From a virus: a stretch of DNA of 36,168 bases. The stretch is taken from IMG/VR virus record IMGVR_UViG_3300020438_000119, positions 1 through 36,168 of that record. One strand, given 5' to 3'. Below, one piece after another: positions 9,947 through 24,534 of the stretch (its first letter is position 1; the number at the start of each line of letters is the position of its first letter). The notes below the pieces were generated by a model. That model saw only the letters and a list, made by a program, of their open reading frames with translations. It was not told where the DNA came from and ran no database searches. Position numbers and translations under genes: made by a program.

Positions 9947-10555
9947 ATGGCAAATACTATAGTATGGTATTATACTGGTTTACCTGATATCATAATTGAT
10001 CAGGTAATTTCTGATTGTAAGTATCATATGAATCCTTTGGAACAATCAAAGGTAGGTATGGTTGATAAAGTAGCACCAAATAATATAAGAAAATCAGAAG
10101 TATCTTGGATTCCATCAACTACATGGATAGGTGGTTTTATATATTCGTATGTTCTAAAAGCAAATAGAGAAAATTTTAAATATGATATAGAAGAAATTGA
10201 AAGTGATGCTATTCAATATACTCATTATGGATTAGATGGTCATTATAGGTGGCATACTGATACTGCTTTGGAGATGTATAGTCAAACTACTGGTAATATT
10301 GGTAATGATTTTATGTCAGAAAATTGTGAAAAGTCAAGGAAGTTATCATTCTCCTTTCAACTGAGTGATCCATATGATTATGAAGGAGGCAATTTTGAAA
10401 TACAATCAGATGATAGTTTTAAAAAGATCATTGCACCAAGAACAAAAGGTACTTTATTCATATTTGATTCTAGGTATAGACACAGAGTTACTAAAATAAC
10501 TAAAGGGCAGAGAGAAGCATTAGTTGGTTGGGTATCTGGTCCTCGTTGGAGATGA
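9947..10555 (+). CDS. 2-oxoglutarate/Fe(II) oxygenase, prolyl-4-hydroxylase type
   Basis: 202 residues from ATG 9947; the in-frame TTG at 9944 adds one residue and is not needed. The double-stranded beta-helix signature is present: iron ligands H103-x-D105 in HYRWHTDT, YDYEGGNFEI as the conserved EGG turn, distal H179 in RYRHRVTKI, and R189 in KGQREALVGW to bind 2-oxoglutarate. This is the P4Hc/2OG-FeII_Oxy_3 fold. The family hydroxylates proteins or small molecules; the phage substrate is unknown. First gene behind the consensus sigma70 promoter at 9896, followed 2 nt later by a second oxygenase, suggesting co-expression early in infection. Confidence 0.85.
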   Translation: MANTIVWYYTGLPDIIIDQVISDCKYHMNPLEQSKVGMVDKVAPNNIRKSEVSWIPSTTWIGGFIYSYVLKANRENFKYDIEEIESDAIQYTHYGLDGHYRWHTDTALEMYSQTTGNIGNDFMSENCEKSRKLSFSFQLSDPYDYEGGNFEIQSDDSFKKIIAPRTKGTLFIFDSRYRHRVTKITKGQREALVGWVSGPRWR

Positions 10556-10557
10556 TT

Positions 10558-11196
10558 ATGCAGATTGATAATAATCTAAGACAAGAAATTGAAAATAGAA
10601 GAAATACCTCACGTACTAATCACGTTGTATATGATAGAGATGGTTTCTTTGTTATAAAGAATATTATAGATGTAAGTCCTTTCAATAAAGAGATATCAGA
10701 AAAATATGGTTATTATGATCATTCAAATGGTAACGTAGTAGTAGCAGAAGAATGTGAATTAGAAACAACAGGATATGAAAGACATTCAAGACGTAATGTT
10801 CCTATATTTGCAAGAGCATATTTAAAAGTTAAACAATGTATCCAAAAAGAAATAGGTAAACAATTATATAATAGTTATTGGTTTGATAGGTATTATTATA
10901 ATGGATCTTTCTTAACTCCTCATTGTGATAGAGATGCTTGTGAAATATCATGTTCAATACATATATCATCTAATATAAAAGAACCATGGGCATTTGGTAT
11001 TGAAGATGGTGATGGAAATGATCATTTAATATATCAAGATGTTGGTGATTGTATTGTATATAAAGGAACTGAGAGAATACATTGGAGACCACCATTTCCT
11101 GAGTCACCTGATGGATCATATTATCATAATGCTTTCTTCCATTATGTTTTAAAGGATGGCATTAGATCACATTATGCTTATGATCCTGAAACATGA
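10558..11196 (+). CDS. 2OG-Fe(II) oxygenase-like protein
   Basis: 212 residues from ATG 10558, chosen because GGAG at 10548-10551 is 6 nt upstream; ATG 10552, which overlaps the previous stop, is an alternative adding two residues. H122-x-D124 (TPHCDRDACEIS) and a distal H175 in ERIHWRPPF, after GDCIVYKG, give the facial triad of a 2OG oxygenase. The sequence differs clearly from the neighbour at 9947, so this is not a recent duplicate. It resembles uncharacterised phage and cyanobacterial 2OG enzymes. Substrate unknown; the two enzymes may act in series or on related targets. Confidence 0.7.
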   Translation: MQIDNNLRQEIENRRNTSRTNHVVYDRDGFFVIKNIIDVSPFNKEISEKYGYYDHSNGNVVVAEECELETTGYERHSRRNVPIFARAYLKVKQCIQKEIGKQLYNSYWFDRYYYNGSFLTPHCDRDACEISCSIHISSNIKEPWAFGIEDGDGNDHLIYQDVGDCIVYKGTERIHWRPPFPESPDGSYYHNAFFHYVLKDGIRSHYAYDPET

Positions 11197-11249
11197 CAAT
11201 GAGGATACTGTCACATGTGGGTTGCATATTTTAAAATCCATGATACAAT
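11194..11249 (+). promoter_or_regulatory. activated-type promoter, dyad site 1
   Basis: TGACAA (11194-11199), an 8-nt gap and CTGTCACA (11208-11215) form the dyad element. A TACAAT -10 box (11244-11249) follows 28 nt after the dyad, and ATG 11271 follows 27 nt after the start of the -10. The left half overlaps the stop of the upstream gene. Same architecture as six other sites in this window. Confidence 0.6.
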
Positions 11250-11270
11250 TACAGAGTAGTTATATTAACC

Positions 11271-11513
11271 ATGAAATTTACTTTAACGTGTATTGACTCT
11301 GATGGTACTCGATCAGAGAAACAATTTGATAGCAATTATCTAGTGGATGTGGTTGATAAGACCTCGGATTTCTTACAAGGCGTTGGTTTTGTATTTGATG
11401 AATTGGAGGTTAAAATGCCTAGTGATTATGAGGATTCTGATCCTTATGACTATGACCAATTGCTAAAGGATAAAGTCTCATTTATTCGGGCAAATAGGAT
11501 AAACAACAAATAG
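11271..11513 (+). CDS. small acidic protein, unknown
   Basis: 80 residues, beginning MKFTLTCIDSDGTRSEKQFD, with an acidic centre (PSDYEDSDPYDYDQ). The sequence is protein-like with mixed beta and loop character, but no known domain is recognised. First gene after the dyad-type promoter at 11194-11249, so likely made in the middle phase. Confidence 0.7.
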   Translation: MKFTLTCIDSDGTRSEKQFDSNYLVDVVDKTSDFLQGVGFVFDELEVKMPSDYEDSDPYDYDQLLKDKVSFIRANRINNK

Positions 11514-11555
11514 CATATATACATTACGTCGTCACGCATTAATTCCAACTAAACA

Positions 11556-11735
11556 ATGGGAAAGACATTTAGAAGAGGTGGTGCTGAGAGAGGTTATTCC
11601 TCACCAGGCAAATCACTTAGAGATAAGCGTCAACGAGGATCTTCAAATAAAAGCACCTCATGGGAATACAAAGATTCACATAATTCAAAGAAATTAACTA
11701 AAAACAAACCTTACGATGTTAAAGATTATGAATGA
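11556..11735 (+). CDS. small basic protein, conserved type
   Basis: 59 residues, MGKTFRRGGAERGYSSPGKS at the start, rich in Lys, Arg and Ser and with no hydrophobic core, so probably disordered and nucleic-acid or protein binding. Starts like MGKTFRRxxxxxxxxGKSLRDKRQ are familiar among T4-like cyanophage small proteins (from memory). The stop overlaps the next gene by 8 nt. Function unknown. Confidence 0.7.
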   Translation: MGKTFRRGGAERGYSSPGKSLRDKRQRGSSNKSTSWEYKDSHNSKKLTKNKPYDVKDYE

Positions 11736-11823
11736 AGATGAAATGCTAGAAATTCTAGATGAAGATCTAGAATATGACGATGGATCTATAGACTATGATC
11801 TTGAATATACTACACAGGAGTAA
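11728..11823 (+). CDS. very small acidic protein
   Basis: 31 residues, almost half Asp or Glu (start MNEDEMLEILDEDLEYDDGS). It overlaps the basic protein upstream by 8 nt and shares an ATG with the next stop (TAATG), the coupling seen throughout this operon, which supports translation. Strong contrast in charge with the basic neighbour suggests they could pair, which is inference only. Confidence 0.55.
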   Translation: MNEDEMLEILDEDLEYDDGSIDYDLEYTTQE

Positions 11824-12017
11824 TGAAAGATCAAAACAGTATCCATGAGGATGAAAGTCCTAACGATAAATGGAATCGTGGACTTGATCTCTACATAGAG
11901 TCAGTCCATAAACCAGACACTCACCTTCGAGGTTGTGCCCATAACCAAAAGTGCTTTAATGAACTAATGGATGTGAGACAACAAGTGTTAGATTACCTTA
12001 CTACCTTAAGGAGATAG
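11823..12017 (+). CDS. small unknown protein
   Basis: 64 residues; start fixed by TAATG coupling at 11821-11825. Charged, with an RGCAHNQKCFNELMDVRQQV segment containing two Cys and one His. The spacing does not define a zinc site on its own. C-terminus helical and basic. No family recognised. Confidence 0.65.
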   Translation: MKDQNSIHEDESPNDKWNRGLDLYIESVHKPDTHLRGCAHNQKCFNELMDVRQQVLDYLTTLRR

Positions 12018-12019
12018 GT

Positions 12020-12214
12020 ATGACATTTTTAAAAACTGCAATTTTAAGTAAAATGCAAAAAGAGGTGCTTAGACAATGTATTTTCAAGTATGTCTCTGAT
12101 GTACAAAGGAAATACTATAAGACGAAGAGTCTTACTCATGATGAGTATGAAGAGTGTATGAGTACTATAAGTGAAATAGTAGACGTATTGCATCTCAACG
12201 AGCAATATGTATAA
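12020..12214 (+). CDS. small helical protein, unknown
   Basis: 64 residues, predicted largely alpha-helical by residue pattern (MTFLKTAILSKMQKEVLRQC). It follows the previous stop by 2 nt and is the last gene before a strong terminator at 12221-12245, so it closes the 9947 or 11271 transcription unit. No family recognised. Confidence 0.65.
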   Translation: MTFLKTAILSKMQKEVLRQCIFKYVSDVQRKYYKTKSLTHDEYEECMSTISEIVDVLHLNEQYV

Positions 12215-12220
12215 CTGTTA

Positions 12221-12245
12221 AGAGGGTTGACAAACCCTCTTTTTT
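12221..12245 (+). terminator. intrinsic terminator
   Basis: AGAGGGTT and AACCCTCT form an 8-bp perfect stem with a GACA loop, followed by six T. It lies 6 nt after the stop of the gene at 12020-12214 and ends the small-gene operon. Confidence 0.9.
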
Positions 12246-12252
12246 ATGCGAT

Positions 12253-12260
12253 TATAAATA
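12253..12260 (+). promoter_or_regulatory. late promoter box upstream of the DGQHR gene
   Basis: Exact TATAAATA 7 nt beyond the terminator T-run. It lies 61 nt before ATG 12322, farther than at the fibre genes (22-26 nt), so the leader would be longer. Its presence suggests late expression of the DGQHR gene, but spacing makes this less certain than the others. Confidence 0.55.
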
Positions 12261-12321
12261 GTGCTGAAGAGGATATTAACTTCTTCATTGTATCACACGA
12301 GATATTAACTCGTTTATTTAA

Positions 12322-13281
12322 ATGTCAAATAAGTCCAACTTTCTTAGGGATGTTCTAAACAATTATAACCTTAAGATTCCAAAGGAGTATAGTGGTAAGT
12401 TTTTACCAATAGAAGAATTAGATGTAAGACTTTGTAAGTTAGACGCAAAGTATCAAAGACACGTTTCACCTGGATATATTCGTAAGGGTGGAGCATTAGA
12501 TCTAACAAAGTTAATCCCACCTGTCATAGCAAGGAGACCAGATCACCTTGATGATGAAGACAAGGGGGATTTTGTTATTGATGGGCAACACCGTTGCTTA
12601 AGAGTGATTAAGAGTAACTACACTGGCACAGTTCCATGCTCTGTTTATACTCATGCTGAAGATGCTACACTTGAACAGTGCATAGAATTTGAAGCAAGAT
12701 TATTCCATGAGTTGAATACTTTAGGTAAGAAACCTACTAAGTTGGATGAAGTTCGTGCTGGTATATACAGTAAGGATGCCAAATCTCTACACATTCTTGA
12801 TATGTTAGAGACATTTAATCTTACTATTGATAATCTTGGATCTGTAAAAGATGATGCTAAAGAGTTAGAAGTGTTTACACATTTCTATCTGTTATGCACT
12901 GGTGATTATCCTACTCAAGTAAGTAAGATTGGTGATGGATTTGAGTTATTGAATGACTTATATCCTAATGAGACTACTGTTAAAGGTGATGCACTTAGAG
13001 CATTTTGCTTAGTATCAGAGTTTATTGATGCTCTTACCAATGGTAAGAAGGTTGCATTTGAAAAGTTTGTTCGTGATGACTTACCAAATTTCAAAACACT
13101 TAAGGCACTTACTAAAGGTAGAGCAACAGGAGCATCTGCACAATTTATCTTACATGATATACTTGGGTGGTATAATGATACCCCTGATGCTATTAACATT
13201 GGCAATAAGTTGTTGGATAAGTTATCCAACAAGGCACTAGGTGGCAACTCTAGGTTTGCTTATCCAGCAAAGGATAAGTAA
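12322..13281 (+). CDS. DGQHR-motif protein (ParB-like / DndB-related)
   Basis: 319 residues. The exact motif D87-G-Q-H-R91 in GDFVIDGQHRCLRVIKSN defines the DGQHR fold, a ParB/sulfiredoxin-like domain known from DndB and from ParB-type proteins on mobile elements. The preceding LIPPVIARRP and following TVPCSVY strands fit this fold. The C-terminal half is alpha-helical. DGQHR proteins often accompany DNA modification or restriction genes, and here a nuclease candidate and a methyltransferase follow. It is preceded by a terminator and a late box. Exact biochemical activity is unknown. Alternatively it is a free-standing ParB-like nuclease or regulator. Confidence 0.75.
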   Translation: MSNKSNFLRDVLNNYNLKIPKEYSGKFLPIEELDVRLCKLDAKYQRHVSPGYIRKGGALDLTKLIPPVIARRPDHLDDEDKGDFVIDGQHRCLRVIKSNYTGTVPCSVYTHAEDATLEQCIEFEARLFHELNTLGKKPTKLDEVRAGIYSKDAKSLHILDMLETFNLTIDNLGSVKDDAKELEVFTHFYLLCTGDYPTQVSKIGDGFELLNDLYPNETTVKGDALRAFCLVSEFIDALTNGKKVAFEKFVRDDLPNFKTLKALTKGRATGASAQFILHDILGWYNDTPDAINIGNKLLDKLSNKALGGNSRFAYPAKDK

Positions 13282-13282
13282 G

Positions 13283-13294
13283 TGCCACTTGGCA
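13283..13294 (+). promoter_or_regulatory. inverted repeat upstream of the sigma70 promoter
   Basis: TGCCA and TGGCA separated by 2 nt, just after the end of the DGQHR gene and 16 nt upstream of a TTGACA box. It uses the same half-site core as the dyad elements elsewhere in the window but with different spacing, so it may be an operator or chance. Confidence 0.3.
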
Positions 13295-13310
13295 AACTGG
13301 ATAGATGGGA

Positions 13311-13339
13311 TTGACATAATCTCATTTATCCTTTATTAT
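13311..13339 (+). promoter_or_regulatory. sigma70-type promoter
   Basis: TTGACA (13311-13316), 17-nt spacer, TATTAT (13334-13339), 23 nt before ATG 13363. Gives the nuclease-candidate and methyltransferase genes their own promoter, separate from the DGQHR gene. Confidence 0.75.
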
Positions 13340-13362
13340 ATTATTATTGAAGCAACTTTCCA

Positions 13363-14013
13363 ATGACACTAAGAGATTATTCTAAGATTCGTGATGACTA
13401 TCATTCAATCATCCCTAAAGCATTACGATTACTTACAGAGAGACTTGACAAATCACTAGAGATTCTTGCTGGTGGTAGAAAAGTCACACTAACAACAATT
13501 TATGGTACTGGTGGTAATTCTACAGTACAAAAGACTAAACTATTAGCAAACTTTGCACCATTCGCATTTGAGGATGCAGCAGAGATAGTGGGCATACCAT
13601 ACAAGTTTGTTGATGGTAACGGATATGATGTAGAAATGGATGATAATGGAGTTATCACTATTGAAGAGAAGATGACTTTAGGTGATGACAATGGTAAATT
13701 TGCAACAGGTAACAATCACAGTAAGGTAAAGAATTCACTTCACTTTGTATTGAAGTTGAAGCATGATGGTAATGTATTTACTGAGGTCTTTGCAGCATTA
13801 GTTGATGTGCCAAATTTAAAGCATAAAGATAGTGGATGGGATGATAAAGTAACATCATCAGGTAAGAACAATAACGGATTCTCTGGTCTTAAAGTGCATA
13901 TCAGTGATATTGATTGCGTTACATCCATCTATGGCACTGCTAGGACTAATGTAAAGAATCAAAAGAGACTATGCACATTTGTACAAACTGATTATGTCGA
14001 TGTTACCTATTAA
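13363..14013 (+). CDS. unknown protein, possible PD-(D/E)XK nuclease
   Basis: 216 residues. The helical N-terminal 35 residues lead to a beta-rich core. D89 in GYDVEM and E101-x-K103 in TIEEKM, 12 residues apart, followed by a Gly/Asn/Lys loop and two strands (SLHFVLKLK, FTEVFAALVDVP), reproduce the D...(D/E)xK layout of restriction-type nucleases. This is a pattern match, not proof, and no family is recognised. The gene overlaps the next one, an SPPY methyltransferase, and follows the DGQHR gene, the context expected of a modification or restriction partner. It could instead be a structural or DNA-binding protein. Confidence 0.45.
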   Translation: MTLRDYSKIRDDYHSIIPKALRLLTERLDKSLEILAGGRKVTLTTIYGTGGNSTVQKTKLLANFAPFAFEDAAEIVGIPYKFVDGNGYDVEMDDNGVITIEEKMTLGDDNGKFATGNNHSKVKNSLHFVLKLKHDGNVFTEVFAALVDVPNLKHKDSGWDDKVTSSGKNNNGFSGLKVHISDIDCVTSIYGTARTNVKNQKRLCTFVQTDYVDVTY

Positions 14014-14851
14014 TAAAATATACAACGAGAGTTGTATTGACGGTATGTCAAAGTTGGATGATGGATGTATCGACTTAGTTGTTACATCCCCACCTTATGA
14101 TGATCTAAGAACTTATAATGATAGTAGTAAATGGGATTATAATGTATTCAAAGATGTTGCAACACTATTAGAAGAGAAGGTTGCTGATGGTGGTGTTGTT
14201 ATGTGGAATGTGGGTGATGCTACAGTAAATGGTAGTGAGACAGGATCATCTTTCAGGCAATGTTTATACTTTATGGATAAAGGTTTCAGGTTGCATGATA
14301 CTATGATATATGAGAAGACTGGCACTGCGTTTGCATCTGGTCCGAAGAGTGTTAGATATACACAGATATTTGAATATTGTTTTATACTTAGTAAGGGTAA
14401 ACCCAAGACAATTAATCTTATTCAAGATAAAAAGAATAAGTGGGCAGGTATACGATCATGGGGTGAGGCAACAAGTAGAAAGAGAGATGGGACAACAAAT
14501 AAACCTGGTAAAAGGAGTAATCCAATTAGAGAATATGGTGTAAGGACTAATATTTGGAGGATTAAGAATAGTGGTGGATTTGGTCAGTCAAGTAAAGCAG
14601 CATATAAACATCCAGCAACAATGCCCGAAGAGTTAGCACGTGGGCACATACTCACGTGGTCTAACAAGGGTGACTTAGTGTTAGATCCCTTTATGGGGTC
14701 GGGCACTACTGCTCAGGTGTGTATCGAAGAAGAACGCAATTACATTGGGTTTGAAGTTGATACACAATACCACACAATGTGTGAGCAAAGAGTATTAGAT
14801 ACGACTCCACATTTATTAAACAATCTAGTTGAGGTAGACAATGCGTCTTAA
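14000..14851 (+). CDS. DNA methyltransferase, beta class (TSPPY)
   Basis: 283 residues from ATG 14000 (MLPINKIYNESCIDGMSKLD); ATG 13994 is an in-frame alternative. Catalytic motif IV TSPPY is at residues 29-33 and motif I DPFMGSGTT at 229-237 (followed by IEEERNYIGFEVD), i.e. catalytic motif first and AdoMet site last: the beta class. SPPY is most common in N4-cytosine enzymes, but some N6-adenine enzymes have it. The region between carries a basic target-recognition stretch (KRDGTTNKPGKRSNP). Overlaps the nuclease candidate by 14 nt and the next gene by 11 nt. Likely modifies phage DNA at a sequence-specific site, protecting it from host or own nuclease. Confidence 0.85.
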   Translation: MLPINKIYNESCIDGMSKLDDGCIDLVVTSPPYDDLRTYNDSSKWDYNVFKDVATLLEEKVADGGVVMWNVGDATVNGSETGSSFRQCLYFMDKGFRLHDTMIYEKTGTAFASGPKSVRYTQIFEYCFILSKGKPKTINLIQDKKNKWAGIRSWGEATSRKRDGTTNKPGKRSNPIREYGVRTNIWRIKNSGGFGQSSKAAYKHPATMPEELARGHILTWSNKGDLVLDPFMGSGTTAQVCIEEERNYIGFEVDTQYHTMCEQRVLDTTPHLLNNLVEVDNAS

Positions 14852-15035
14852 TGAAACTGAATTGCTTACCAAAAGAATAAAACGTCTTAAGGAGGCAATT
14901 AAAGCATCTGATGACAATCCTATGCTATATGAAACTGAAGAGTTAATCTTTATGAAACGCTCTTTAAATAAACTACTCACTGTGCAAACACAAGCACGCC
15001 AAATACAAAATGGAGGTTTCGGTTACGATGTCTAA
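14841..15035 (+). CDS. small helical protein, unknown
   Basis: 64 residues, Lys/Glu/Leu-rich (LLTKRIKRLKEAIKASDDNP), mostly helical and possibly a short coiled coil. ATG 14841 overlaps the methyltransferase end by 11 nt, so it is translationally coupled to it. No family recognised; coupling suggests it may assist the modification module. Confidence 0.65.
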   Translation: MRLNETELLTKRIKRLKEAIKASDDNPMLYETEELIFMKRSLNKLLTVQTQARQIQNGGFGYDV

Positions 15036-15153
15036 AAAACTACATGTTGATTATGATGAGAATTATGATCTATGCCAAGAGAATGAAGATGAGTGGATCA
15101 CTGATCTTTTAGGGTCTGAAGAGGACTTAGTTAGTGATATCCTTAATAATTGA
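15028..15153 (+). CDS. very small acidic protein
   Basis: 41 residues, strongly acidic (MSKKLHVDYDENYDLCQENE at the start, LLGSEEDLVSDILNN at the end). Overlaps the previous gene by 8 nt; the stop lies inside the inverted repeat at 15131-15162. Function unknown. Confidence 0.55.
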   Translation: MSKKLHVDYDENYDLCQENEDEWITDLLGSEEDLVSDILNN

Positions 15154-15162
15154 TATCACTAA
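15131..15162. repeat. 11-bp inverted repeat at an operon end
   Basis: TTAGTGATATC (15131-15141) and GATATCACTAA (15152-15162) are perfect complements around a 10-nt loop. No T-run follows, so it is not a classical terminator; it may be an mRNA-stabilising hairpin or an operator. It overlaps the end of the 41-residue gene and abuts the variant late box AATAAATA. Confidence 0.7.
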
Positions 15163-15168
15163 TAAATA
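15161..15168 (+). promoter_or_regulatory. possible variant late promoter box
   Basis: AATAAATA, one mismatch from the late consensus, 30 nt before ATG 15199. Position fits the other late boxes, but the sequence is also expected by chance in AT-rich DNA. Confidence 0.35.
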
Positions 15169-15198
15169 GATATATAGTACACGTAATTACTCAAGAAA

Positions 15199-15360
15199 AT
15201 GAAACAACAATTTGTAAGTGTTGTAATCACTGCTAATGATGATAGACCTAAAGCAGAAGGATGGTTGAAAGCAGCGATAGAGAATGACCTTCAATCAGGT
15301 GAATCTATCTTAGAATTTAGAGAAGTGAATTGTGATGCTGAAGGTAATGAAATAGAATAA
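15199..15360 (+). CDS. small unknown protein
   Basis: 53 residues (MKQQFVSVVITANDDRPKAE, ending CDAEGNEIE). An alternating hydrophobic N-terminal strand followed by a helix (GWLKAAIENDLQSGESILEF) suggests a small alpha/beta fold. 14 nt before the next 2OG oxygenase gene. No family recognised. Confidence 0.65.
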   Translation: MKQQFVSVVITANDDRPKAEGWLKAAIENDLQSGESILEFREVNCDAEGNEIE

Positions 15361-15374
15361 AATACTATAATATA

Positions 15375-15995
15375 ATGCAACGACTTGATATATTACCACA
15401 GTCTATTGCTAAGTTTAAATGTACTAGTGAGGTAACATCTAGTGCATTAGAATTACTTAGCAATGAGCAGTGGTTTTTTTATTCTGATAGACAGCGTAAT
15501 AGTAGGACTGTTAATGTACAATTAAATAAAGATATTAGATATAATATATTATTTGATTGGGTTTACGATTGTTTACAAGAATTGAAAGATACTTTAGGTT
15601 TTAATTGTGATGAATTGAAAGTTGTGCAGTCATGGGGTAATAAATCAGAGATAGGACAGTATCATACAGAACATAGTCATCCTAATTCATTTGTAAGTGG
15701 TATTATATACTTGAATGATTCTGAGTCTGGAACTATATTTAATATTGATAGTATATGGACTAATCCTTCATATAGTAATATACGTTTATGGCATGGTGAT
15801 TCAGATAGTCATAAAATATATCATCAACAATCAGCAATTGCTGGTGATATGATTATATTTCCATCATCATTAGGTCATGAAGTTGATATTAATAGGAGTG
15901 ATGATATTAGATATACAATATCATTTAACGCATTTCCATCTGGTAGAATAGGTAATTTTGATGATCTCTTAGGCATGGATATATGTGTCAATTAA
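15375..15995 (+). CDS. 2OG-Fe(II) oxygenase, 2OG-FeII_Oxy_5 type
   Basis: 206 residues. The signature QYHTEHSHPNSFVSGIIYLN places H97, H100 and H102 in the family pattern HxxHxHPxSxxSGxxYL, followed by SGTIFNID and the distal GDMIIFPSSLGHEVDINRS with H168, then RYTISFNAFPSG. This is the TIGR02466/PF13759 type, widespread in marine T4-like phages; its substrates are not known. It has no clear Shine-Dalgarno. The gene ends just upstream of a dyad-type promoter whose left half overlaps the coding end. Confidence 0.85.
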   Translation: MQRLDILPQSIAKFKCTSEVTSSALELLSNEQWFFYSDRQRNSRTVNVQLNKDIRYNILFDWVYDCLQELKDTLGFNCDELKVVQSWGNKSEIGQYHTEHSHPNSFVSGIIYLNDSESGTIFNIDSIWTNPSYSNIRLWHGDSDSHKIYHQQSAIAGDMIIFPSSLGHEVDINRSDDIRYTISFNAFPSGRIGNFDDLLGMDICVN

Positions 15996-16042
15996 TATAG
16001 TGGCACACAAATCCACCATTTCATGCTATAATACACTATATT
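15986..16042 (+). promoter_or_regulatory. activated-type promoter, dyad site 2
   Basis: TGTCAA (15986-15991), 8 nt, GTGGCACA (16000-16007), then a 29-nt gap to TATATT (16037-16042), 30 nt before ATG 16067. A second candidate -10, TATAAT at 16027-16032 with an extended TG, also occurs, so the exact start is ambiguous; the 29-nt spacing matches the other sites. Confidence 0.6.
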
Positions 16043-16066
16043 AAGAGAGTCAACAAATCCTTTACC

Positions 16067-16303
16067 ATGACAGCATTTACTGTTGAGACTGAGCATCATG
16101 TAGTTGAGTTTAACGACAAACCAACATACAAGGCATGGAAGAAGTATATTAAGAATCTAGGAGTTTCTCCTGATTATTATATGTTTGAGTTTGACATCGA
16201 AGAAACATTATTTCCTGAAGTTGATGATGTTGTTATCAACAACTTAATGGAAGATGCTGATGATGCTAGAGGACATTATGAGGATATTGATGATGAAGAG
16301 TAA
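16067..16303 (+). CDS. small acidic protein, unknown
   Basis: 78 residues with a strongly acidic C-terminal tail (NLMEDADDARGHYEDIDDEE). The N-terminal part (TVETEHHVVEFNDKPTYKAW) looks like a small alpha/beta fold. First gene behind dyad promoter 2. Overlaps the next gene by 11 nt. No family recognised. Confidence 0.7.
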   Translation: MTAFTVETEHHVVEFNDKPTYKAWKKYIKNLGVSPDYYMFEFDIEETLFPEVDDVVINNLMEDADDARGHYEDIDDEE

Positions 16304-16535
16304 TACATTAGCAGAGCATTTTCCTTATCGTTATGTAGAATGTGGTGTGCTAGATAGTAATGGTAGACCAGACTTTCGCATCCAAAAGTATAACGAATAC
16401 ACTAAAAGATATATTGATATGTATCTTTGTGATAATGGTATGCAATTAGCACAAGCAATTGAGGATGTTGAATATACTAAATGGTTAGATCCTGAAGGTG
16501 TGCCATGTTACATTAAGGATGATGTTTATGAGTAG
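16293..16535 (+). CDS. small unknown protein
   Basis: 80 residues from ATG 16293 (MKSNTLAEHFPYRYVECGVL), which overlaps the previous stop; upstream in-frame Mets lie inside the preceding gene and give implausible sequence. Contains a compact FRIQKYNEYTKRYIDMYLCD strand-helix region and ends acidic. Overlaps the next gene by 8 nt. No family recognised. Confidence 0.65.
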   Translation: MKSNTLAEHFPYRYVECGVLDSNGRPDFRIQKYNEYTKRYIDMYLCDNGMQLAQAIEDVEYTKWLDPEGVPCYIKDDVYE

Positions 16536-17190
16536 ATTTAATCCTATTTTATGGTATGATAATATACCTATAGATGAAGAACTATTATCAGATACTATAG
16601 ATAATATTTTATCTGGAGAGAAAGAGTTTAGATGTGGTGATGAGTATTATACCAGTTATTTCACAAATTCTATTAATAAATCTGGTCCTGATACTATATT
16701 CACAGAATATTATAATAATATAATTAATAGAGCATCTACAGATTTAGGATTATTTCATAGATCTGAATATCAGGTGGCAACATGGATGCAAGTGTATATT
16801 AGTGGTAATAGTATGAGAATACACGATCATTATTATGGTGGTGAATTATATTCTTTTGTACATTTTGTACAACCAACTGATGATAACTTGTTTTTCTTTA
16901 TTGATAGTAATAATAATAAAATATATCCTGATGAGCAAAGAAAGAATGATTTTATAGTATTTCCAGCATGGTTACAGCATGGTGTTGATGATAATAATAC
17001 TGATGATAAAAGAGGAATATTGTCAGGTAATGTAATGTTAAAGTTTATGTATAGAGATCAGTTTAGAGATTATAGTAAAGTTGATTATATTACTAGACCT
17101 GATGGTGGAGAAACAGTATTAATAGATAATAATAGAAATCCTGAATATTATAAAAATAAACAACGTCACTCTGACTTAGATTCACTATGA
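16528..17190 (+). CDS. 2OG-Fe(II) oxygenase-like protein
   Basis: 220 residues from ATG 16528 (MSRFNPILWYDNIPIDEELL), overlapping the upstream stop; the further-upstream ATG gives a Cys-Met-rich artefact. H99-D100-H101 in MRIHDHYYGGELYSFVHFVQ and the distal NDFIVFPAWLQHGVDDN with H151 resemble the 2OG-FeII_Oxy_5 family (FPxWLxHxV). The HDH arrangement instead of HxD makes the first ligand pair less standard. Less close to the family consensus than the protein at 15375, so partner and activity are less certain. Overlaps the next gene by 4 nt. Confidence 0.7.
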   Translation: MSRFNPILWYDNIPIDEELLSDTIDNILSGEKEFRCGDEYYTSYFTNSINKSGPDTIFTEYYNNIINRASTDLGLFHRSEYQVATWMQVYISGNSMRIHDHYYGGELYSFVHFVQPTDDNLFFFIDSNNNKIYPDEQRKNDFIVFPAWLQHGVDDNNTDDKRGILSGNVMLKFMYRDQFRDYSKVDYITRPDGGETVLIDNNRNPEYYKNKQRHSDLDSL

Positions 17191-17414
17191 GTAGTAATAA
17201 CATAAAAGAGAAAATCTCTATTGCAAGAGATAGAATTAAAGAGTTAGAAGTATTAATTAGTGCGTGGGAATCTACTCTACCAAAGAGAAAGTTTGGTGAC
17301 AAAAATGATCACGTAGAACCTACTATTACTACACCAAATGGTGAAATTAGTGAAACTTTAATGAGTGGGGCATTAGGACAATATTATAATAAGGAGGATA
17401 TAAATGTCACTTAA
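17187..17414 (+). CDS. small helical protein, unknown
   Basis: 75 residues, a helical N-terminal half (MSSNNIKEKISIARDRIKEL) and a loop-rich C-terminus. ATGA overlap with the oxygenase gene upstream and 11-nt overlap with the next gene downstream. No family recognised. Confidence 0.65.
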   Translation: MSSNNIKEKISIARDRIKELEVLISAWESTLPKRKFGDKNDHVEPTITTPNGEISETLMSGALGQYYNKEDINVT

Positions 17415-17607
17415 TTGGATACTTATTCCTTGGTCTCAACAATCAACTAGAAACATGACTTATAAAGATTTATTAGATCAATTACAGGAGATGGATGATA
17501 AACAATTAAAAGATCAAGTTGTATGTTATGATATAGCAAACGATAGATATGTTCCTGCATATCAATCATGTTTATCAGAAGATAATGAACTTTACATTGC
17601 ATTTTAA
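17404..17607 (+). CDS. small conserved-type phage protein
   Basis: 67 residues. The MTYKDLLDQLQEMDDKQLKD segment followed by VVCYDIANDRY is familiar from cyanophage hypothetical proteins (recalled, not checked). ATG 17404 is supported by a strong AAGGAGG at 17391-17397, 6 nt upstream; an internal ATG at 17455 would start exactly at MTYKDLL and is an alternative. Function unknown. Confidence 0.65.
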   Translation: MSLNWILIPWSQQSTRNMTYKDLLDQLQEMDDKQLKDQVVCYDIANDRYVPAYQSCLSEDNELYIAF

Positions 17608-17609
17608 CT

Positions 17610-18533
17610 ATGAAAGATACTATATTATTTGGTGATTGTAGAGAAACACTTAAACAATTCGATGAAAAAGCAAGGTGTTGCGTGACATCTCCACCTTACT
17701 ACGGACTGAGAGATTATGGAGGTGAAGATAGTCAAATAGGACAGGAACAATCACCAGAAGAATATATTGAAGAGATGGTAAATGTATTCAGATTAGTAAG
17801 AGATTGTCTTACTGATGATGGTACTTTGTGGTTGAATATTGGTGATAGTTATTATAATTATAGGAAAGATGGATGTATCCCTAAACAAACATTCTCTAAT
17901 AATAGACAAGATTTACCTGTAACTACACCTCGTAGAAGTAACAAACTAAAAGGATATAAAGAGAAAGATTTAATTGGTATTCCGTGGATGTTAGCATTTG
18001 CATTACGAGCAGATGGATGGTACTTAAGGCAAGATATTATATGGCATAAACCTAATCCAATGCCTGAAAGTGTAAGAGATAGATGCACTAAATCCCATGA
18101 ATATATCTTCCTACTAAGTAAGAACAAGAATTACTATTATGACAATGATGCTATTAAAGAACCAGCGAAAGATTGGGGCACTCGTGATAGATCTAATGGT
18201 AAATATCACAATGAAGGTAGTGGATTAACACCTCATTCTGGTCTCACTAAATCATACTCAAAGAGGAATAAACGTAGTGTGTGGAGTATAAACAAGAAAC
18301 CATATAAGGGGGCACACTTTGCAACTTATCCTGAAGAGTTAATAACACCTTGTATAAAAGCAGGATCAGATAAGGGTGATATTATACTAGATCCATTTAT
18401 GGGAAGTGGCACAACCGCAGTGGTAGCAAAGGATTTGGGTAGGTATTATATTGGTTGTGAGTTGCATGATGACTATGGGGAGTTAATTAAGAAGAGATTA
18501 GGACTGTATGCCAGTCTAAGAACTGTCACATAA
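17610..18533 (+). CDS. second DNA methyltransferase, beta class (TSPPY)
   Basis: 307 residues. Motif IV TSPPY at residues 26-30 (CCVTSPPYYGLRDYGG), then motif I DPFMGSGTT at 261-269 with AVVAKDLGRYYIGCELHDDY, order typical of beta-class enzymes. It is only loosely similar to the enzyme at 14000 (shared fold motifs but a different middle region), so target sequences probably differ. YYGLRDYG after SPPY is typical of many phage and restriction-modification enzymes of this group. No nuclease gene is adjacent: it is an orphan methyltransferase, probably for self-protection. The last codons (TATGCCAGT) form the left half of dyad promoter 3. Confidence 0.85.
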   Translation: MKDTILFGDCRETLKQFDEKARCCVTSPPYYGLRDYGGEDSQIGQEQSPEEYIEEMVNVFRLVRDCLTDDGTLWLNIGDSYYNYRKDGCIPKQTFSNNRQDLPVTTPRRSNKLKGYKEKDLIGIPWMLAFALRADGWYLRQDIIWHKPNPMPESVRDRCTKSHEYIFLLSKNKNYYYDNDAIKEPAKDWGTRDRSNGKYHNEGSGLTPHSGLTKSYSKRNKRSVWSINKKPYKGAHFATYPEELITPCIKAGSDKGDIILDPFMGSGTTAVVAKDLGRYYIGCELHDDYGELIKKRLGLYASLRTVT

Positions 18534-18564
18534 TCTTGTATTTGCCTGTAATATCTGCTATACT
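18509..18564 (+). promoter_or_regulatory. activated-type promoter, dyad site 3
   Basis: TGCCAG (18509-18514), 8 nt, CTGTCACA (18523-18530), 28 nt, TATACT (18559-18564), with a TG one base before the -10 (extended -10). A weak TTGTAT -35 at 18536-18541 has 17-nt spacing. ATG 18593 follows 34 nt after the -10 start. The left half overlaps the methyltransferase coding end. Drives the helicase gene. Confidence 0.7.
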
Positions 18565-18592
18565 ACGTTTGTAGTTTGAATTTATCCTACTT

Positions 18593-19840
18593 ATGCAATT
18601 ATTACCACATCAGCAACGTGCATACGATATGATGCAAGTTGAAAACAGTGGGCGTATCATAATCCCTACTGGTGGTGGTAAAACTTATATTATGATTGCA
18701 GACCTTGTTAATCAATTAAGGATTGCAAATCGTCCTACTATTAGTGTAGTAGTAGCACCTCGTATTCTACTAAGTAATCAATTACATTCAGAATTTAGTA
18801 GATTCTATGATAATAGTGTTACTACTGTGCATGTGCATAGTGGCGAAGTTGACGGATTAAGCACAACAAACGCAAGAGAATTGCGTGACATTGTTATTAC
18901 AAATGGTGCTTTAATTCACTCTCATATTATATTCACTACCTACCACAGTTTGCAACGTGTAGTTGATGCTAACATCATCATTGATAATATATACTTTGAT
19001 GAGGCACATCACAGCACTGGTAGACACTTTCATCAAGCAGTGTTAGCAACATCTAAGTTTGCTAATCGTAGTTACTATTTTACTGCTACTCCTAGAATTG
19101 GTAGAGGAGATAGTAAAGCAAGAGGCATGGATAATAACAGAGTTTATGGTAACATCCTAGAGCAAACTACTGCTAAGGAGTTAATAGATAGTGGCAAGAT
19201 TCTATCTCCGCAGATAGTCCCATTTGACACAGATACTGTGCGTGATAGATACAATGCACATGATGTTGATGCGGAAAATCTACTTAACATACTAGATTCA
19301 TTGGATCAAGGTGTTAATCACAAGGTGCTAGTTGCTGCCCCTAATACTAAAGTATTGTGGAGAATGTTGAGTCAGACAAGTGTAATTAGTGACTTAACTT
19401 CTGCTGGTTATGATATACTACACATCACATCTAAGCATGGTGCGTATATCAATAAGACCAAAGTTGGTCGCCAATTATTCTTTGATACCCTTACAAAATG
19501 GGGTGCTGATGATAACAAACGCTTCGTAGTCTTCCACTATTCGATATTATCGGAGGGGATAGATGTTCCTGGATTAACTCATACTATTCTACTGCGTAAT
19601 TTGCCTACTATTGAGATGGCACAGACGATAGGTAGAGTAATTAGATTACATCCAGAGGATAGGAAAAATATATCAGAAGGACGTATTCCTGCTGGTATGT
19701 TTAACTTTTATCGCAAGAAGTGTGGTTATGTAACTGTGCCAATGTCAGGCAAGTTAGCATCAAGAACTCTTAAGAGATTACAGGGCATTGTTGATATTAT
19801 CTTTAAAGAGGGCATCCCACCTATTTCATATGCCAGTTAA
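18593..19840 (+). CDS. uvsW: SF2 DNA helicase, UvsW-like
   Basis: 415 residues with superfamily 2 motifs in order: PTGGGKT (25-31, Walker A), DEAHH (136-140, Walker B), TATPR (164-168, motif III), and QTIGRVIRL (344-352, motif VI). The helicase core starts almost at residue 1, so the N-terminal domain seen in T4 UvsW (about 500 residues) is largely missing, making this a short form. UvsW is an ATP-dependent helicase that remodels D-loops, R-loops and stalled forks in phage recombination and origin control. Alternative: a related type-III-restriction-style SF2 helicase. It is transcribed from the dyad promoter 3 and ends in dyad 4, whose left half overlaps the stop. Confidence 0.7.
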   Translation: MQLLPHQQRAYDMMQVENSGRIIIPTGGGKTYIMIADLVNQLRIANRPTISVVVAPRILLSNQLHSEFSRFYDNSVTTVHVHSGEVDGLSTTNARELRDIVITNGALIHSHIIFTTYHSLQRVVDANIIIDNIYFDEAHHSTGRHFHQAVLATSKFANRSYYFTATPRIGRGDSKARGMDNNRVYGNILEQTTAKELIDSGKILSPQIVPFDTDTVRDRYNAHDVDAENLLNILDSLDQGVNHKVLVAAPNTKVLWRMLSQTSVISDLTSAGYDILHITSKHGAYINKTKVGRQLFFDTLTKWGADDNKRFVVFHYSILSEGIDVPGLTHTILLRNLPTIEMAQTIGRVIRLHPEDRKNISEGRIPAGMFNFYRKKCGYVTVPMSGKLASRTLKRLQGIVDIIFKEGIPPISYAS

Positions 19841-19887
19841 TATACTGGCACACAGTTTTACCATTTACTCTTATTAGTCTTTATAAT
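19831..19887 (+). promoter_or_regulatory. activated-type promoter, dyad site 4
   Basis: TGCCAG (19831-19836), 8 nt, CTGGCACA (19845-19852), a 29-nt gap, TATAAT (19882-19887), 30 nt before ATG 19912. TGCCAGT and ACTGGCA are perfect complements around 6 nt. The left half covers the last codons of the helicase gene, as at site 3. Confidence 0.7.
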
Positions 19888-19911
19888 AAGAGTATCAAAC
19901 AAAAAAGCATT

Positions 19912-20046
19912 ATGCGTTTGATCCTTCTCTTACTACTCGGTTTCTTAATCTACAAATCAAATGATGCACGTTACGTGATCTCAGACTATTTGATAGATGC
20001 CGCCGAGATTGTGAGACCTAATCCACATATACGAGTGAGGTATTGA
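19912..20046 (+). CDS. small membrane protein
   Basis: 44 residues with one N-terminal hydrophobic segment (MRLILLLLLGFLIYKSN), then a charged C-terminus (IDAAEIVRPNPHIRVRY). Either a membrane anchor or a cleavable signal peptide without an obvious AXA site. First gene behind dyad promoter 4. A small inner-membrane protein made early or in middle phase could act on the host envelope; this is inference. Confidence 0.65.
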   Translation: MRLILLLLLGFLIYKSNDARYVISDYLIDAAEIVRPNPHIRVRY

Positions 20047-20047
20047 A

Positions 20048-20227
20048 ATGAGTTGTTTACAGAATGAAATGATATTAGAGACCTTATTTGATGAAGTCTG
20101 GGAAGATTTCAGGGTTTCTAATAAGTTAACAGTTGAAATGATGAATGAGTTATGCTCATTTAGTGAGGGCACTAATGTAGCATTAGAGAGACAAACTATG
20201 AAAAGATTTGAGGCATTGTGTCAATGA
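20048..20227 (+). CDS. small acidic helical protein, unknown
   Basis: 59 residues, acidic and helical (MSCLQNEMILETLFDEVWED). Starts 1 nt after the previous stop and overlaps the next start (ATGA). No family recognised. Confidence 0.6.
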   Translation: MSCLQNEMILETLFDEVWEDFRVSNKLTVEMMNELCSFSEGTNVALERQTMKRFEALCQ

Positions 20228-20475
20228 TTTCTATTAAAGAACTTAACACTTTTGTCAACTATGTTTGGGATTTCTATTCACCAGACAGCGATCTTTACCC
20301 TATTAAAGGTTTAACTAAGGGTCACATTTATGATGCTTTCTTTACATATAAGAATAGAATCTTAAAAGGTGACTTAGAATATGCTCACTATTATTGGGGT
20401 GATGGTGATACATTAGACAGAGAAAGAGTGAGAGATATTATACTTGAAAACCCAAGATTACAGGTGTCGGTATGA
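20224..20475 (+). CDS. small unknown protein
   Basis: 83 residues from ATG 20224, which overlaps the preceding TGA; a GTG two codons earlier is an alternative. Aromatic-rich (NYVWDFYSPDSDLYP, AHYYWGDGD). Loop-rich acidic end with a helix at ERVRDIILEN. No family recognised. Confidence 0.65.
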   Translation: MISIKELNTFVNYVWDFYSPDSDLYPIKGLTKGHIYDAFFTYKNRILKGDLEYAHYYWGDGDTLDRERVRDIILENPRLQVSV

Positions 20476-20636
20476 CAAATAGCGTCACAAGATACACTCG
20501 TTGTGGTAGACTTGGGAAGACCATAGTTTGCCCCGAATGTGATAACAAAGCAAGAGTATTTCACTTCAGTTGGAGTGCATTAACTTGCCAAAATTGCAAC
20601 CATTCCATTAACAAAACCTCTTGGAGATTAGCATGA
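20472..20636 (+). CDS. small zinc-ribbon protein
   Basis: 54 residues. Two Cys pairs, CPEC (residues about 20-23) and CQNC (about 41-44), about 17 residues apart, form a zinc ribbon. The intervening RVFHFSWSALTCQ is typical of a small marine T4-like phage protein (VCPECxxxxRVxHFxWSALxC), recalled not checked. Such ribbons often contact nucleic acid or RNA polymerase. ATGA overlaps on both sides (20472 and 20633). Confidence 0.7.
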   Translation: MTNSVTRYTRCGRLGKTIVCPECDNKARVFHFSWSALTCQNCNHSINKTSWRLA

Positions 20637-20923
20637 CTAAGTATCAACTACCAGCAAACCCTAATGCAACAAATAGTGAGTTAGATGCTACACAGTTTGT
20701 GATACCTACTATCCCAGATTGCGATCTACCAGTAACACTAACTGAAGATCAAATTAGCACCATTCTTTATGTTTTAGAAGGGTATGTGCAAGGTAAAAAT
20801 GATATTGGGAATGTCAACAACTTTGAAGAATTAGTATCAGAAATTGATACTATCTTTGAGAAATTAGAATCAGTTGTTGATAGTCACTATGATAGATTAG
20901 ATGAGTTATGTAAAGAGATTTAG
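20633..20923 (+). CDS. acidic helical protein, unknown
   Basis: 96 residues from ATG 20633 (MTKYQLPANPNATNSELDAT), overlapping the previous stop. Largely acidic with a helical C-terminal half (NNFEELVSEIDTIFEKLESV). Last gene of its operon: dyad site 5 and a terminator follow directly. No family recognised. Confidence 0.65.
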   Translation: MTKYQLPANPNATNSELDATQFVIPTIPDCDLPVTLTEDQISTILYVLEGYVQGKNDIGNVNNFEELVSEIDTIFEKLESVVDSHYDRLDELCKEI

Positions 20924-20925
20924 TG

Positions 20926-20982
20926 TGCCAGAACATAAACTGTCACACTCAACCCCCATTTGGGGGTTTTTTCATGTATTAT
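20926..20982 (+). promoter_or_regulatory. activated-type promoter, dyad site 5
   Basis: TGCCAG (20926-20931), 8 nt, CTGTCACA (20940-20947), 29 nt, TATTAT (20977-20982), with ATG 21012 35 nt after the -10 start. A complete terminator (20951-20972) is embedded between the dyad and the -10 box. Confidence 0.65.
20951..20972 (+). terminator. intrinsic terminator inside promoter 5
   Basis: AACCCCC and GGGGGTT stem of 7 bp with ATTT loop, followed by six T. It ends the operon that runs from 19912 and lies in the -35 region of the next promoter. Confidence 0.9.
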
Positions 20983-21011
20983 TAAAGAGTAGAAAATGAT
21001 TTACGCTTTTT

Positions 21012-21179
21012 ATGTCATCAACAAGGATTCTCAGACTATCAGAAGAAGAAGAAAACGTTTTAGTCGAAATGTTTTCATTCTGCTGTCAAGCAGACTTTAC
21101 AGAGCATCAAGATGATCCTAAGATCTTTGATGATCTATGGGAGAGGGTATCCGATCCCGAACCTTTTGATTATGTTTAA
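21012..21179 (+). CDS. small acidic protein, unknown
   Basis: 55 residues from ATG 21012 (MSSTRILRLSEEEENVLVEM), helical and acidic with a CCQ pair. A competing reading from ATG 20997 runs into Arg-rich sequence and stops early. The gene lies 35 nt after the -10 of promoter 5 and overlaps the next by 8 nt. No family recognised. Confidence 0.6.
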   Translation: MSSTRILRLSEEEENVLVEMFSFCCQADFTEHQDDPKIFDDLWERVSDPEPFDYV

Positions 21180-21345
21180 GGATATGAGATACTCCGTCCA
21201 TTGTCCATCCGCACCCTATGAAAATTCATCATTTGTTAATTTAGATGATTGTTGGGGTCTATGTCTTGATTTATCCGAAGAGTTTGGATACGCTGAGGTC
21301 AGACATGGAAACTGTGTTTTAGGATCATACACAGACGGACAATAA
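21172..21345 (+). CDS. small unknown protein
   Basis: 57 residues from ATG 21172 (MFKDMRYSVHCPSAPYENSS), with three Cys and a DDCWGLCLDLSEEFGYAEV segment. ATG 21184 is an alternative start. The in-frame extension upstream to 21112 lies inside the previous gene. Last gene before dyad site 6 and its terminator. No family recognised. Confidence 0.65.
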   Translation: MFKDMRYSVHCPSAPYENSSFVNLDDCWGLCLDLSEEFGYAEVRHGNCVLGSYTDGQ

Positions 21346-21393
21346 ACAAACTGTCACACTAAAACCCCATTAGGGGTTTTTTATTGCTATATT
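21337..21393 (+). promoter_or_regulatory. activated-type promoter, dyad site 6
   Basis: GGACAA (21337-21342), 8 nt, CTGTCACA (21351-21358), 29 nt, TATATT (21388-21393) preceded by TGC. The left half is the weakest of the seven and overlaps the gene end. A terminator (21361-21382) lies between dyad and -10. It would start the structured RNA at about 21398-21400. Confidence 0.6.
21361..21382 (+). terminator. intrinsic terminator inside promoter 6
   Basis: AAAACCCC and GGGGTTTT stem of 8 bp with ATTA loop and six T. Ends the 21012-21345 unit. Confidence 0.9.
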
Positions 21394-21397
21394 ATAA

Positions 21398-21485
21398 GAG
21401 TGAAACAATTTGAGGTTTATCTACTCTGACTTAGAAGCAGAGACATGACGATAAATTAAAAATACTTACCTCAAATGTTTCACTC
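21398..21485 (+). ncRNA. structured 5' leader or small RNA candidate
   Basis: GAGTGAAACA (21398-21407) pairs with TGTTTCACTC (21476-21485), and TTTGAGGT (21409-21416) with ACCTCAAA (21468-21475), leaving one bulged A: an 18-bp long-range stem. Inside it, CTCTG and CAGAG (21424-21428, 21438-21442) form a small hairpin. The predicted transcription start of promoter 6 lies at the first base of the stem, and the coding start is 29 nt after it. It may control translation of the gene at 21515 or be an mRNA-stabilising cap; no known riboswitch class is recognised. Confidence 0.55.
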
Positions 21486-21514
21486 GCTAACTAACACAAA
21501 CTGCATCGAATCTT

Positions 21515-21871
21515 ATGCCAGCAAAGTCTACTACAACTGCTGTTAATTCTGCAAAGAAAGTAACAACAACTAAGAGGAAGACTCGCACGAGAAAAGCATC
21601 AACAACTACTCCTAAATCTGCACCAGTTGTTGTTAAGGAAGTAAAGAAAGTTGAAGCACCAGTTGTTAAGAATGTCCAAAGACGTAGACCAGTTAAAACT
21701 CATTTAACTGCTCAAGATTACGTCACTGATTTCAAAGTAAGATGGGAAATCCATTCCTTTGAGATACAAGAACTTAACACAGATTTAGTTGCAATGTATC
21801 AATCAGCAAGTAAAATTGCAGTTGATGTTGTTAACTATATCAAAACCTCATACAATACCGCTTTCAACTAG
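21515..21871 (+). CDS. basic protein with histone-H1-like N-terminal tail
   Basis: 118 residues. Residues 1-60 are Lys/Ala/Thr/Pro/Val-rich and very basic (KRKTRTRKASTTTPKSAP), like the tail of histone H1 or bacterial histone-like proteins and likely to bind DNA without specific structure. Residues 61-118 are a helical domain (QDYVTDFKVRWEIHSFEIQE). The gene follows a 120-nt leader with a long-range stem. A phage DNA-binding or nucleoid-targeting protein is plausible; no family name is certain. Confidence 0.65.
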   Translation: MPAKSTTTAVNSAKKVTTTKRKTRTRKASTTTPKSAPVVVKEVKKVEAPVVKNVQRRRPVKTHLTAQDYVTDFKVRWEIHSFEIQELNTDLVAMYQSASKIAVDVVNYIKTSYNTAFN

Positions 21872-21927
21872 GACAGTTGACAAAGTGGCACACAAGCACC
21901 CCACGGGTGCTTTTTTATTGCTATTAT
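21871..21927 (+). promoter_or_regulatory. activated-type promoter, dyad site 7
   Basis: GGACAG (21871-21876), 8 nt, GTGGCACA (21885-21892), 29 nt, TATTAT (21922-21927) preceded by TGC, 55 nt before ATG 21977. Terminator embedded at 21894-21916. Confidence 0.65.
21894..21916 (+). terminator. intrinsic terminator inside promoter 7
   Basis: AAGCACCC and GGGTGCTT form an 8-bp stem with a short loop and six T. Ends the 21515 gene. Confidence 0.9.
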
Positions 21928-21976: not shown

Positions 21977-22324
21977 ATGAGAAAACTTGAAAAGCAAATG
22001 AATTTCGCCATCTCTAACAAGGGCAACTGGGCGGGATCTAACACAGGAGTTTCTTATAACGAGTCAACAAATTGCTCTTCTGTTTATCTACATGGTCATC
22101 TAATTGCAGTCGTAGATCATAATCTAAAAGCAGTCAAATTGTCTTCTTGTGGTTATACAACAGTTACCACAAAATCAAGACTAAATGCTATTTTAGAAGA
22201 GGTCAAATACGGTGCTAAAGTATTCCAAAAGAATTGGGAATGGTTTGTTTCTTATAACGGACAAACACAAGATTTCTGGGATGGGATGATACTTATAGAC
22301 GCAGATCATCTAGAGGTAGCGTAA
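21977..22324 (+). CDS. conserved phage protein, unknown function
   Basis: 115 residues (MRKLEKQMNFAISNKGNWAG). The pattern with VYLHGHLIAVVD, TVTTKSRLNAILEE and VFQKNWEWFVSY is familiar across tailed phages of marine bacteria, both T4-like and T7-like (recalled, not checked); its role is unknown. The stop is inside the stem of the terminator at 22312-22343. Driven by dyad promoter 7. Confidence 0.75.
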   Translation: MRKLEKQMNFAISNKGNWAGSNTGVSYNESTNCSSVYLHGHLIAVVDHNLKAVKLSSCGYTTVTTKSRLNAILEEVKYGAKVFQKNWEWFVSYNGQTQDFWDGMILIDADHLEVA

Positions 22325-24039: not shown

Positions 24040-24309
24040 ATGTTAACAATCCAACACCAATCACTTGACAAACTATCAGAAACCGTTTATAATAAGACTG
24101 TTAGTTTGAAAGGCAAAATGCAGTATCTCGTTGAGGATGAAAAGGGCAAATTGCATGGCACGTTCTATTCAGTAACTGACTTAGAATTGTACATGGACGC
24201 TATTAGAAACTCTAGAGGAGATAGGTATAAAGAATTGCCGAGACATTCCTGTTTTGATTATATCAAATCGATTGGATGGTACTTATCAATTAAGGACGAG
24301 AATAACTAA
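24040..24309 (+). CDS. small unknown protein
   Basis: 89 residues (MLTIQHQSLDKLSETVYNKT). A strand-helix pattern with MQYLVEDEKGKLHGTFYSVT and a C-terminal half YIKSIGWYLSIKDENN. No Shine-Dalgarno is evident at ATG 24040; the 140 nt upstream are AT-rich and non-coding apart from an 11-residue reading frame near 23900, which I do not call. No family recognised. Confidence 0.6.
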   Translation: MLTIQHQSLDKLSETVYNKTVSLKGKMQYLVEDEKGKLHGTFYSVTDLELYMDAIRNSRGDRYKELPRHSCFDYIKSIGWYLSIKDENN

Positions 24310-24505: not shown

Positions 24506-24534
24506 TTGACAATTAACAGTTAGTGATGTATACT
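24506..24534 (+). promoter_or_regulatory. strong sigma70 promoter
   Basis: TTGACA (24506-24511), 17-nt spacer, TATACT (24529-24534). No gene follows closely: the next start is at 24713, 179 nt away, so it makes a long leader or a small RNA. Confidence 0.75.

Follow-up and report, generated by a model that had tools for sequence, protein, structure and literature searches.

Middle promoters of phage T4 carry a MotA box at -30 next to a host-type -10 box and a weak -35, and are used through sigma appropriation by AsiA/MotA. Late promoters of phage P2 carry dyad Ogr/Delta sites near -55 (TGT-N12-ACA), where the phage activator contacts the alpha C-terminal domain of RNA polymerase. For T4-like cyanophages, Doron et al. 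2016 (ISME J) reportedly described a novel regulatory element for early genes of Syn9 and P-TIM40 and host-like promoters for middle genes, both kinds being said to be conserved in the group. motA and/or asiA have been reported missing from T4-like cyanophages (PMC5780444), composite terminator/early-promoter (PeSL) cassettes are known from T4-like phages (Arbiol 2010; Comeau 2014; as relayed in PMC4503421), and NtcA sites have been predicted elsewhere in cyanophages (PMC3037559). Marine viruses include few groups more abundant than the T4-like cyanophages, which direct host transcription without the MotA route of T4. The present analysis concerns seven sites in a viral DNA stretch of 36,168 nucleotides (the window; positions 1 to 36,168 of IMG/VR record IMGVR_UViG_3300020438_000119), each composed of a 24-bp palindrome and a -10 box at a fixed distance downstream.

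The seven sites most likely belong to one activator-type promoter class of T4-like picocyanobacterial phages, in which a dimer would be bound at the upstream palindrome. The -10 box would be recognized by the host polymerase carrying its primary sigma factor, and the role of the usually poor -35 would be taken by the dimeric protein, on a palindrome centered about 53.5 bp before the transcription start. A spacer of 28 to 31 nt would set this protein immediately upstream of the polymerase, with the alpha C-terminal domain as the probable contact. Such promoters lie at gene junctions of a hypervariable island of small genes, and the minority with a terminator in the spacer would end the upstream unit and start the next within one cassette. 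We infer activation, early timing, and polymerase contact.

The window sites are probably new members of the early-gene element class reported by Doron et al. 2016. Syn9 and P-TIM40 belong to the same phage family and both carry the palindrome layout, and the conservation reported among T4-like cyanophages has its counterpart in a relaxed form of the dyad found in all 13 whole cyanomyovirus genomes searched. The anatomy of the palindrome, the spacer terminators, the evidence that marine hosts have no such regulon, and the presence of the palindrome in some host genomes may go beyond that work; no description of the motif was found in the open literature, a comparison outside which Doron et al. 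2016 falls.

Other systems resemble the element in part. The host-type -10, weak -35, and additional upstream element are shared with T4 middle promoters, but the additional element here is a 24-bp palindrome at -53.5, with nothing conserved near -30. Position is shared with the P2 dyad, whereas the half-site differs and the palindrome is longer. PeSL cassettes, as far as PMC4503421 relays them, likewise fuse a terminator to a promoter at gene junctions of hypervariable regions, as in three of the seven sites here and 49 of 449 sites in relatives; the conserved part here, however, is the upstream palindrome at its fixed distance, with or without a terminator. NtcA promoters of cyanobacteria also have a palindromic activator site and function in the same hosts, but GTA-N8-TAC is absent from the consensus columns, and the present element is longer and lies further upstream.

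Anatomy of the sites in the window and in relatives

All positions assigned to left halves, right halves, and -10 boxes in the initial annotation were correct. The dyad occurs seven times on the plus strand compared with 0.01 expected per window in 200 order-3 Markov sequences, none of which contained the full layout found seven times in the window. The sole minus-strand match to the dyad, at 20945, is site 5 read in mirror image. Exactly the same seven sites were returned on the plus strand (scores of 20 to 43) by a matrix derived from 449 sites of other phages, none of them from the window. Its remaining matches above 10 were only mirror images of four of the seven, and scores in 40 simulated strands reached 10.4 at best.

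The dyad originally described is present, but the conserved unit is larger, a 24-bp palindrome that begins 2 nt upstream of the left half as first drawn (TGTGNCA-N10-TGNCACA). The half-site in relatives is TGTGHCAST, and the whole element reads TGTGHCAST-N6-ASTGDCACA, followed after 28 to 31 nt by TATAAT; its center lies near -53.5 when the -10 box is taken as -12 to -7. About 450 such sites occur in Kyanoviridae, with a concentration in the small-gene island. Among 155 phage-record entries chosen without selection on spacing, with both readings of any given palindrome included, a -10 box (at least five of six matches) was found at 28, 29, and 30 nt in 8, 46, and 18 entries, other offsets typically giving 1 to 4 and up to 11. 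These are the clean figures, because the IMG/VR contigs were retrieved by a 29-nt-spacer pattern, which inflates their count at 29 nt. The proposal of a promoter family with fixed spacing is borne out in hundreds of related-phage sites, with -10 boxes clustering 28 to 30 nt past the palindrome.

Alignment columns are sharp in the palindrome and the -10 box and nearly without information in the -35 region. Spacer columns hold no more than about 0.3 bit, and no conserved sequence is found near -30, which supports the earlier distinction from the MotA box. At sites in which both cores were required, the outer bases are conserved in 93 to 95% on the promoter-proximal side versus 79 to 80% on the distal side; the half-site closer to the polymerase is the more constrained one. 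The best -35 matches at the window sites are two to four of six, and none has TTGACA 16 to 18 nt before the -10 box, the canonical sigma-70 arrangement.

At 311 of 449 sites in relatives, a frame of at least 30 codons starts with an ATG 20 to 40 nt past the -10 box. In the window, a start codon 27 to 35 nt after the -10 box had been noted for the first five sites; this holds for sites 1 to 4 (27 to 34 nt from the start of the -10 box to the ATG), but the distance at site 5 is 19 nt, and at sites 6 and 7 the next ATG is 55 to 57 nt away. Neither is the element wholly intergenic, as it had been called, because several upstream stop codons lie at or inside the left half. The upstream gene in relatives also frequently ends within the palindrome.

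Two properties extend the original description: the element is Kyanoviridae-wide, and some of its spacers are terminators. At three of the seven sites (sites 5, 6, and 7), a GC-rich hairpin and its T run make up the spacer, the length of which stays the same. Terminators were found in the spacer at 49 of 449 sites in relatives versus 6.7 in shuffles, again with the 28- to 30-nt distance kept. Sites 1 to 4 and most sites in relatives lack a spacer terminator, and the distance from palindrome to -10 box is fixed there too. Coordinates are collected in the table.

Table. Components of the seven sites (positions in the window)
Feature	Position	Strand	Sequence	Remarks
Site 1 palindrome	11192..11215	+	CATGACAATGAGGATACTGTCACA	Weakest left half; matrix score 20.3; overlaps TGA stop of ORF 10528-11196
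Site 1 -10 box	11244..11249	+	TACAAT	28 nt past palindrome; ORF at 11271
Site 2 palindrome	15984..16007	+	TGTGTCAATTAATATAGTGGCACA	Overlaps end of ORF 15375-15995 (2OG-Fe(II) oxygenase-like)
Site 2 -10 box	16037..16042	+	TATATT	29 nt past palindrome; ORF at 16067
Site 3 palindrome	18507..18530	+	TATGCCAGTCTAAGAACTGTCACA	Within end of methyltransferase ORF 17610-18533
Site 3 -10 box	18559..18564	+	TATACT	28 nt past palindrome; helicase ORF at 18593
Site 4 palindrome	19829..19852	+	TATGCCAGTTAATATACTGGCACA	Best in window, score 43.2; overlaps stop of helicase ORF 18593-19840
Site 4 -10 box	19882..19887	+	TATAAT	29 nt past palindrome
Site 5 palindrome	20924..20947	+	TGTGCCAGAACATAAACTGTCACA	From sequence and matrix
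Site 5 intrinsic terminator	20951..20968	+	AACCCCCATTTGGGGGTT + T run	Fills spacer
Site 5 -10 box	20977..20982	+	TATTAT	29 nt past palindrome
Site 6 palindrome	21335..21358	+	ACGGACAATAAACAAACTGTCACA	From sequence and matrix
Site 6 intrinsic terminator	21361..21380	+	AAAACCCCATTAGGGGTTTT + T run	Fills spacer
Site 6 -10 box	21388..21393	+	TATATT	29 nt past palindrome
Site 7 palindrome	21869..21892	+	TAGGACAGTTGACAAAGTGGCACA	Begins with TAG stop of ORF 21515-21871
Site 7 intrinsic terminator	21894..21912	+	AAGCACCCCACGGGTGCTT + T run	Fills spacer
Site 7 -10 box	21922..21927	+	TATTAT	29 nt past palindrome; Kyano_Gp96 ORF at 21977
ORF, open reading frame.

Distribution among phages

The relaxed dyad gave 148 strand-hits in the 13 cyanomyovirus genomes versus 5 for the reversed pattern, and 25 versus 0 in the freshwater Kyanoviridae phage S-CRM01. 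P-SSP7, Syn5, PSS2, S-CBS2, S-TIM5, Ma-LMM01, T4, and the SAR11 phage HTVC008M gave 0 to 1 hits each, HTVC008M being a SAR11-infecting Kyanoviridae relative without the palindrome. Strong sites identified with the matrix number about 8 to 10 in P-TIM40 and about 5 in Syn9, and Kyanoviridae-type proteins are encoded at 117 of 119 IMG/VR loci. Palindromes with a -10 box after them are located at 48884, 50295, 52466, 53287, 53761, 54329, and 55024 in P-TIM40 and at 48558, 52996, 127492, and 148742 in Syn9.

The peptidase gene adjoining gp46 allows one position to be followed across phages. The site upstream of it is kept in P-SSM7, Syn9, and P-RSM4 with differing spacers, whereas P-TIM40 has a degenerate version. 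In S-PM2 the position is occupied by a terminator and a -10-like box, and in HTVC008M (NC_020484) a -35 of the TTGACT type with a -10-like box stands in place of the palindrome, just upstream of the peptidase gene at 87395.

Alternative readings and the candidate binding protein

The palindrome is, on the evidence of 459 aligned sites, a DNA operator for a dimer and not an RNA hairpin, because changes in one arm are not matched by compensating changes in the other. Complementarity between mirrored columns does not exceed chance, the largest excess being 49% pairing versus 44% expected under independence, at the variable half-site position. Three column pairs nearer the center share a small amount of mutual information but, unlike a hairpin, have complementarity below expectation. 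Half-sites that vary without mutual compensation are as expected for a dimeric DNA-binding protein, in line with the dimer first proposed. That the dyad acts instead as RNA, as a terminator, processing, or antitermination signal in the upstream transcript, is extremely improbable. The upstream transcript does run through the dyad, with terminators following it at three sites, and the RNA of sites 4 and 6 folds better than shuffled sequence, but that of sites 2 and 3 does not, and the -10 distance is fixed even where no terminator is present. An Rfam search of the window found no family.

A link between terminator-promoter cassettes and gene shuffling in T4-like phages, as PMC4503421 relays it, would fit sigma-70 promoters of the ordinary kind, with a common upstream sequence that is no more than a recombination cassette copied between genes. 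Copying would, however, carry the spacer along too, whereas spacers and the palindrome center vary by site while palindrome, spacing, and -10 box stay constant; furthermore, most sites lack a good -35, which leaves this reading very unlikely. Palindromic operators are often repressor sites, but an operator for repression or silencing would be expected to overlap the -10 or -35 more often, and the fixed position at -53.5 upstream of a core promoter with a mostly poor -35 fits activation better. Repression through the palindrome is accordingly improbable.

Activation by a dimer at the palindrome also has observations to answer for. A good -35 (five to six of six) occurs at about 58 of 449 sites in relatives versus 5.8 in shuffled spacers, which indicates that some promoters add a -35 while most do not and that not every promoter depends on the dyad. 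Among relatives, sites with a weak -35 do not have stronger palindromes, so that no trade-off is seen, and S-SM2 and S-MbCM6 have few or no good island sites by the matrix. In addition, no DNA-binding gene is common to six motif-bearing genomes yet missing from HTVC008M and S-TIM5, although such a comparison can miss short, fast-changing genes. Genes for Sm-like, DUF3110, MazG-like, and 88-amino-acid proteins fit this distribution, but none encodes an evident DNA-binding activator, and the search for a phage activator through shared gene content was rejected on that ground.

The palindrome may also be the target of a host transcription factor, put to use by T4-like cyanophages as soon as they have entered the cell, a possibility to be taken seriously but on balance unlikely. 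If the class is early, as Doron et al. 2016 reportedly found, such a factor has to be in place when the phage enters, and the SAR11-infecting relative lacks the element. An exact palindrome lies about 400 to 430 bp upstream of the 16S rRNA in several picocyanobacterial genomes of presumed freshwater type, as judged from G+C content and relatives (L285, L286, and L288), and a palindrome is found upstream of an HTH_17 gene in three others. On the other hand, 27 Prochlorococcus/Synechococcus-type genomes show no enrichment at one mismatch (49 places versus 52 for the reversed control), which speaks against a host regulon in marine picocyanobacteria. Most picocyanobacterial rRNA leaders are without the palindrome, and so are the unrelated cyanophages P-SSP7, Syn5, PSS2, S-CBS2, and S-TIM5.

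The absence of a regulon in marine hosts and of the site in unrelated phages of those hosts tilts the balance slightly toward a phage-encoded or virion-delivered binding protein; a host-encoded one is a lesser but substantial possibility. The operator could conceivably be shared by cells and viruses, a picocyanobacterial regulator (or its kin) with freshwater sites before an rRNA operon and defence-type-island genes having been recruited by T4-like cyanophages. This is doubtful, but if it were true, the virus would seize a cellular switch for growth or defence. With a defined 24-bp operator at a fixed place, a matrix that marks its sites, and evidence against a marine host regulon, the search for the activator becomes a direct experiment.

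Across 201 picocyanobacterial genomes, the exact palindrome occurs at 20 places versus 3 for the control, part of the excess coming from freshwater-type genomes. At L285:1756, L286:5455, L288:6299, and L291:153, it is followed by a related block (GGGTGCTACCTTT or similar). A general picocyanobacterial rRNA-promoter element was rejected, since the arrangement occurs in only a few freshwater-type genomes and is missing from most other rRNA leaders examined. The exact or near-exact palindromes adjoining the HTH_17 gene (L284:5476 and 6748, L282:5000 and 6272, and L287:5070 and 5994) lie in a defence-type island with a weakly PIN-like neighbor, an Eco57I-type methylase, an AAA_21 ATPase, and an HNH gene. 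The HTH_17 protein itself was discarded as the binder, there being no HTH_17 gene in the motif-bearing phages searched.

Gene context and other promoter-like junctions

The 36-kb window represents part of the genome of a T4-like cyanophage (Kyanoviridae), as indicated by strong phage-family matches of its structural and replication proteins (tail fibres, baseplate wedge, helicase, and DNA methyltransferases) and by blastn hits that are mostly Synechococcus and Prochlorococcus phages. All seven promoter sites fall between the tail-fibre genes and the baseplate wedge gene, a region that corresponds in relatives to an island of small hypothetical genes with a methylase and a helicase. The stretch 12322-13281 had no match in a Pfam search and matches PHROG 2558, a family of unknown function; its DNA (GATGGGCAACACCGT), when translated directly, gives the DGQHR motif known from DndB/DGQHR-domain proteins.

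Promoter-like sequences outside the palindrome class are also present in the window. A different compact junction is found at 12220-12255 and 13299-13339, where a terminator-like hairpin contains TTGACA and a -10 box (GATTAT and TATTAT, respectively) follows 17 nt on, without the palindrome. Near-perfect host-like promoters are located at 24065-24093 (TTGACA-17-TATAAT) and 24506-24534 (TTGACA-17-TATACT).

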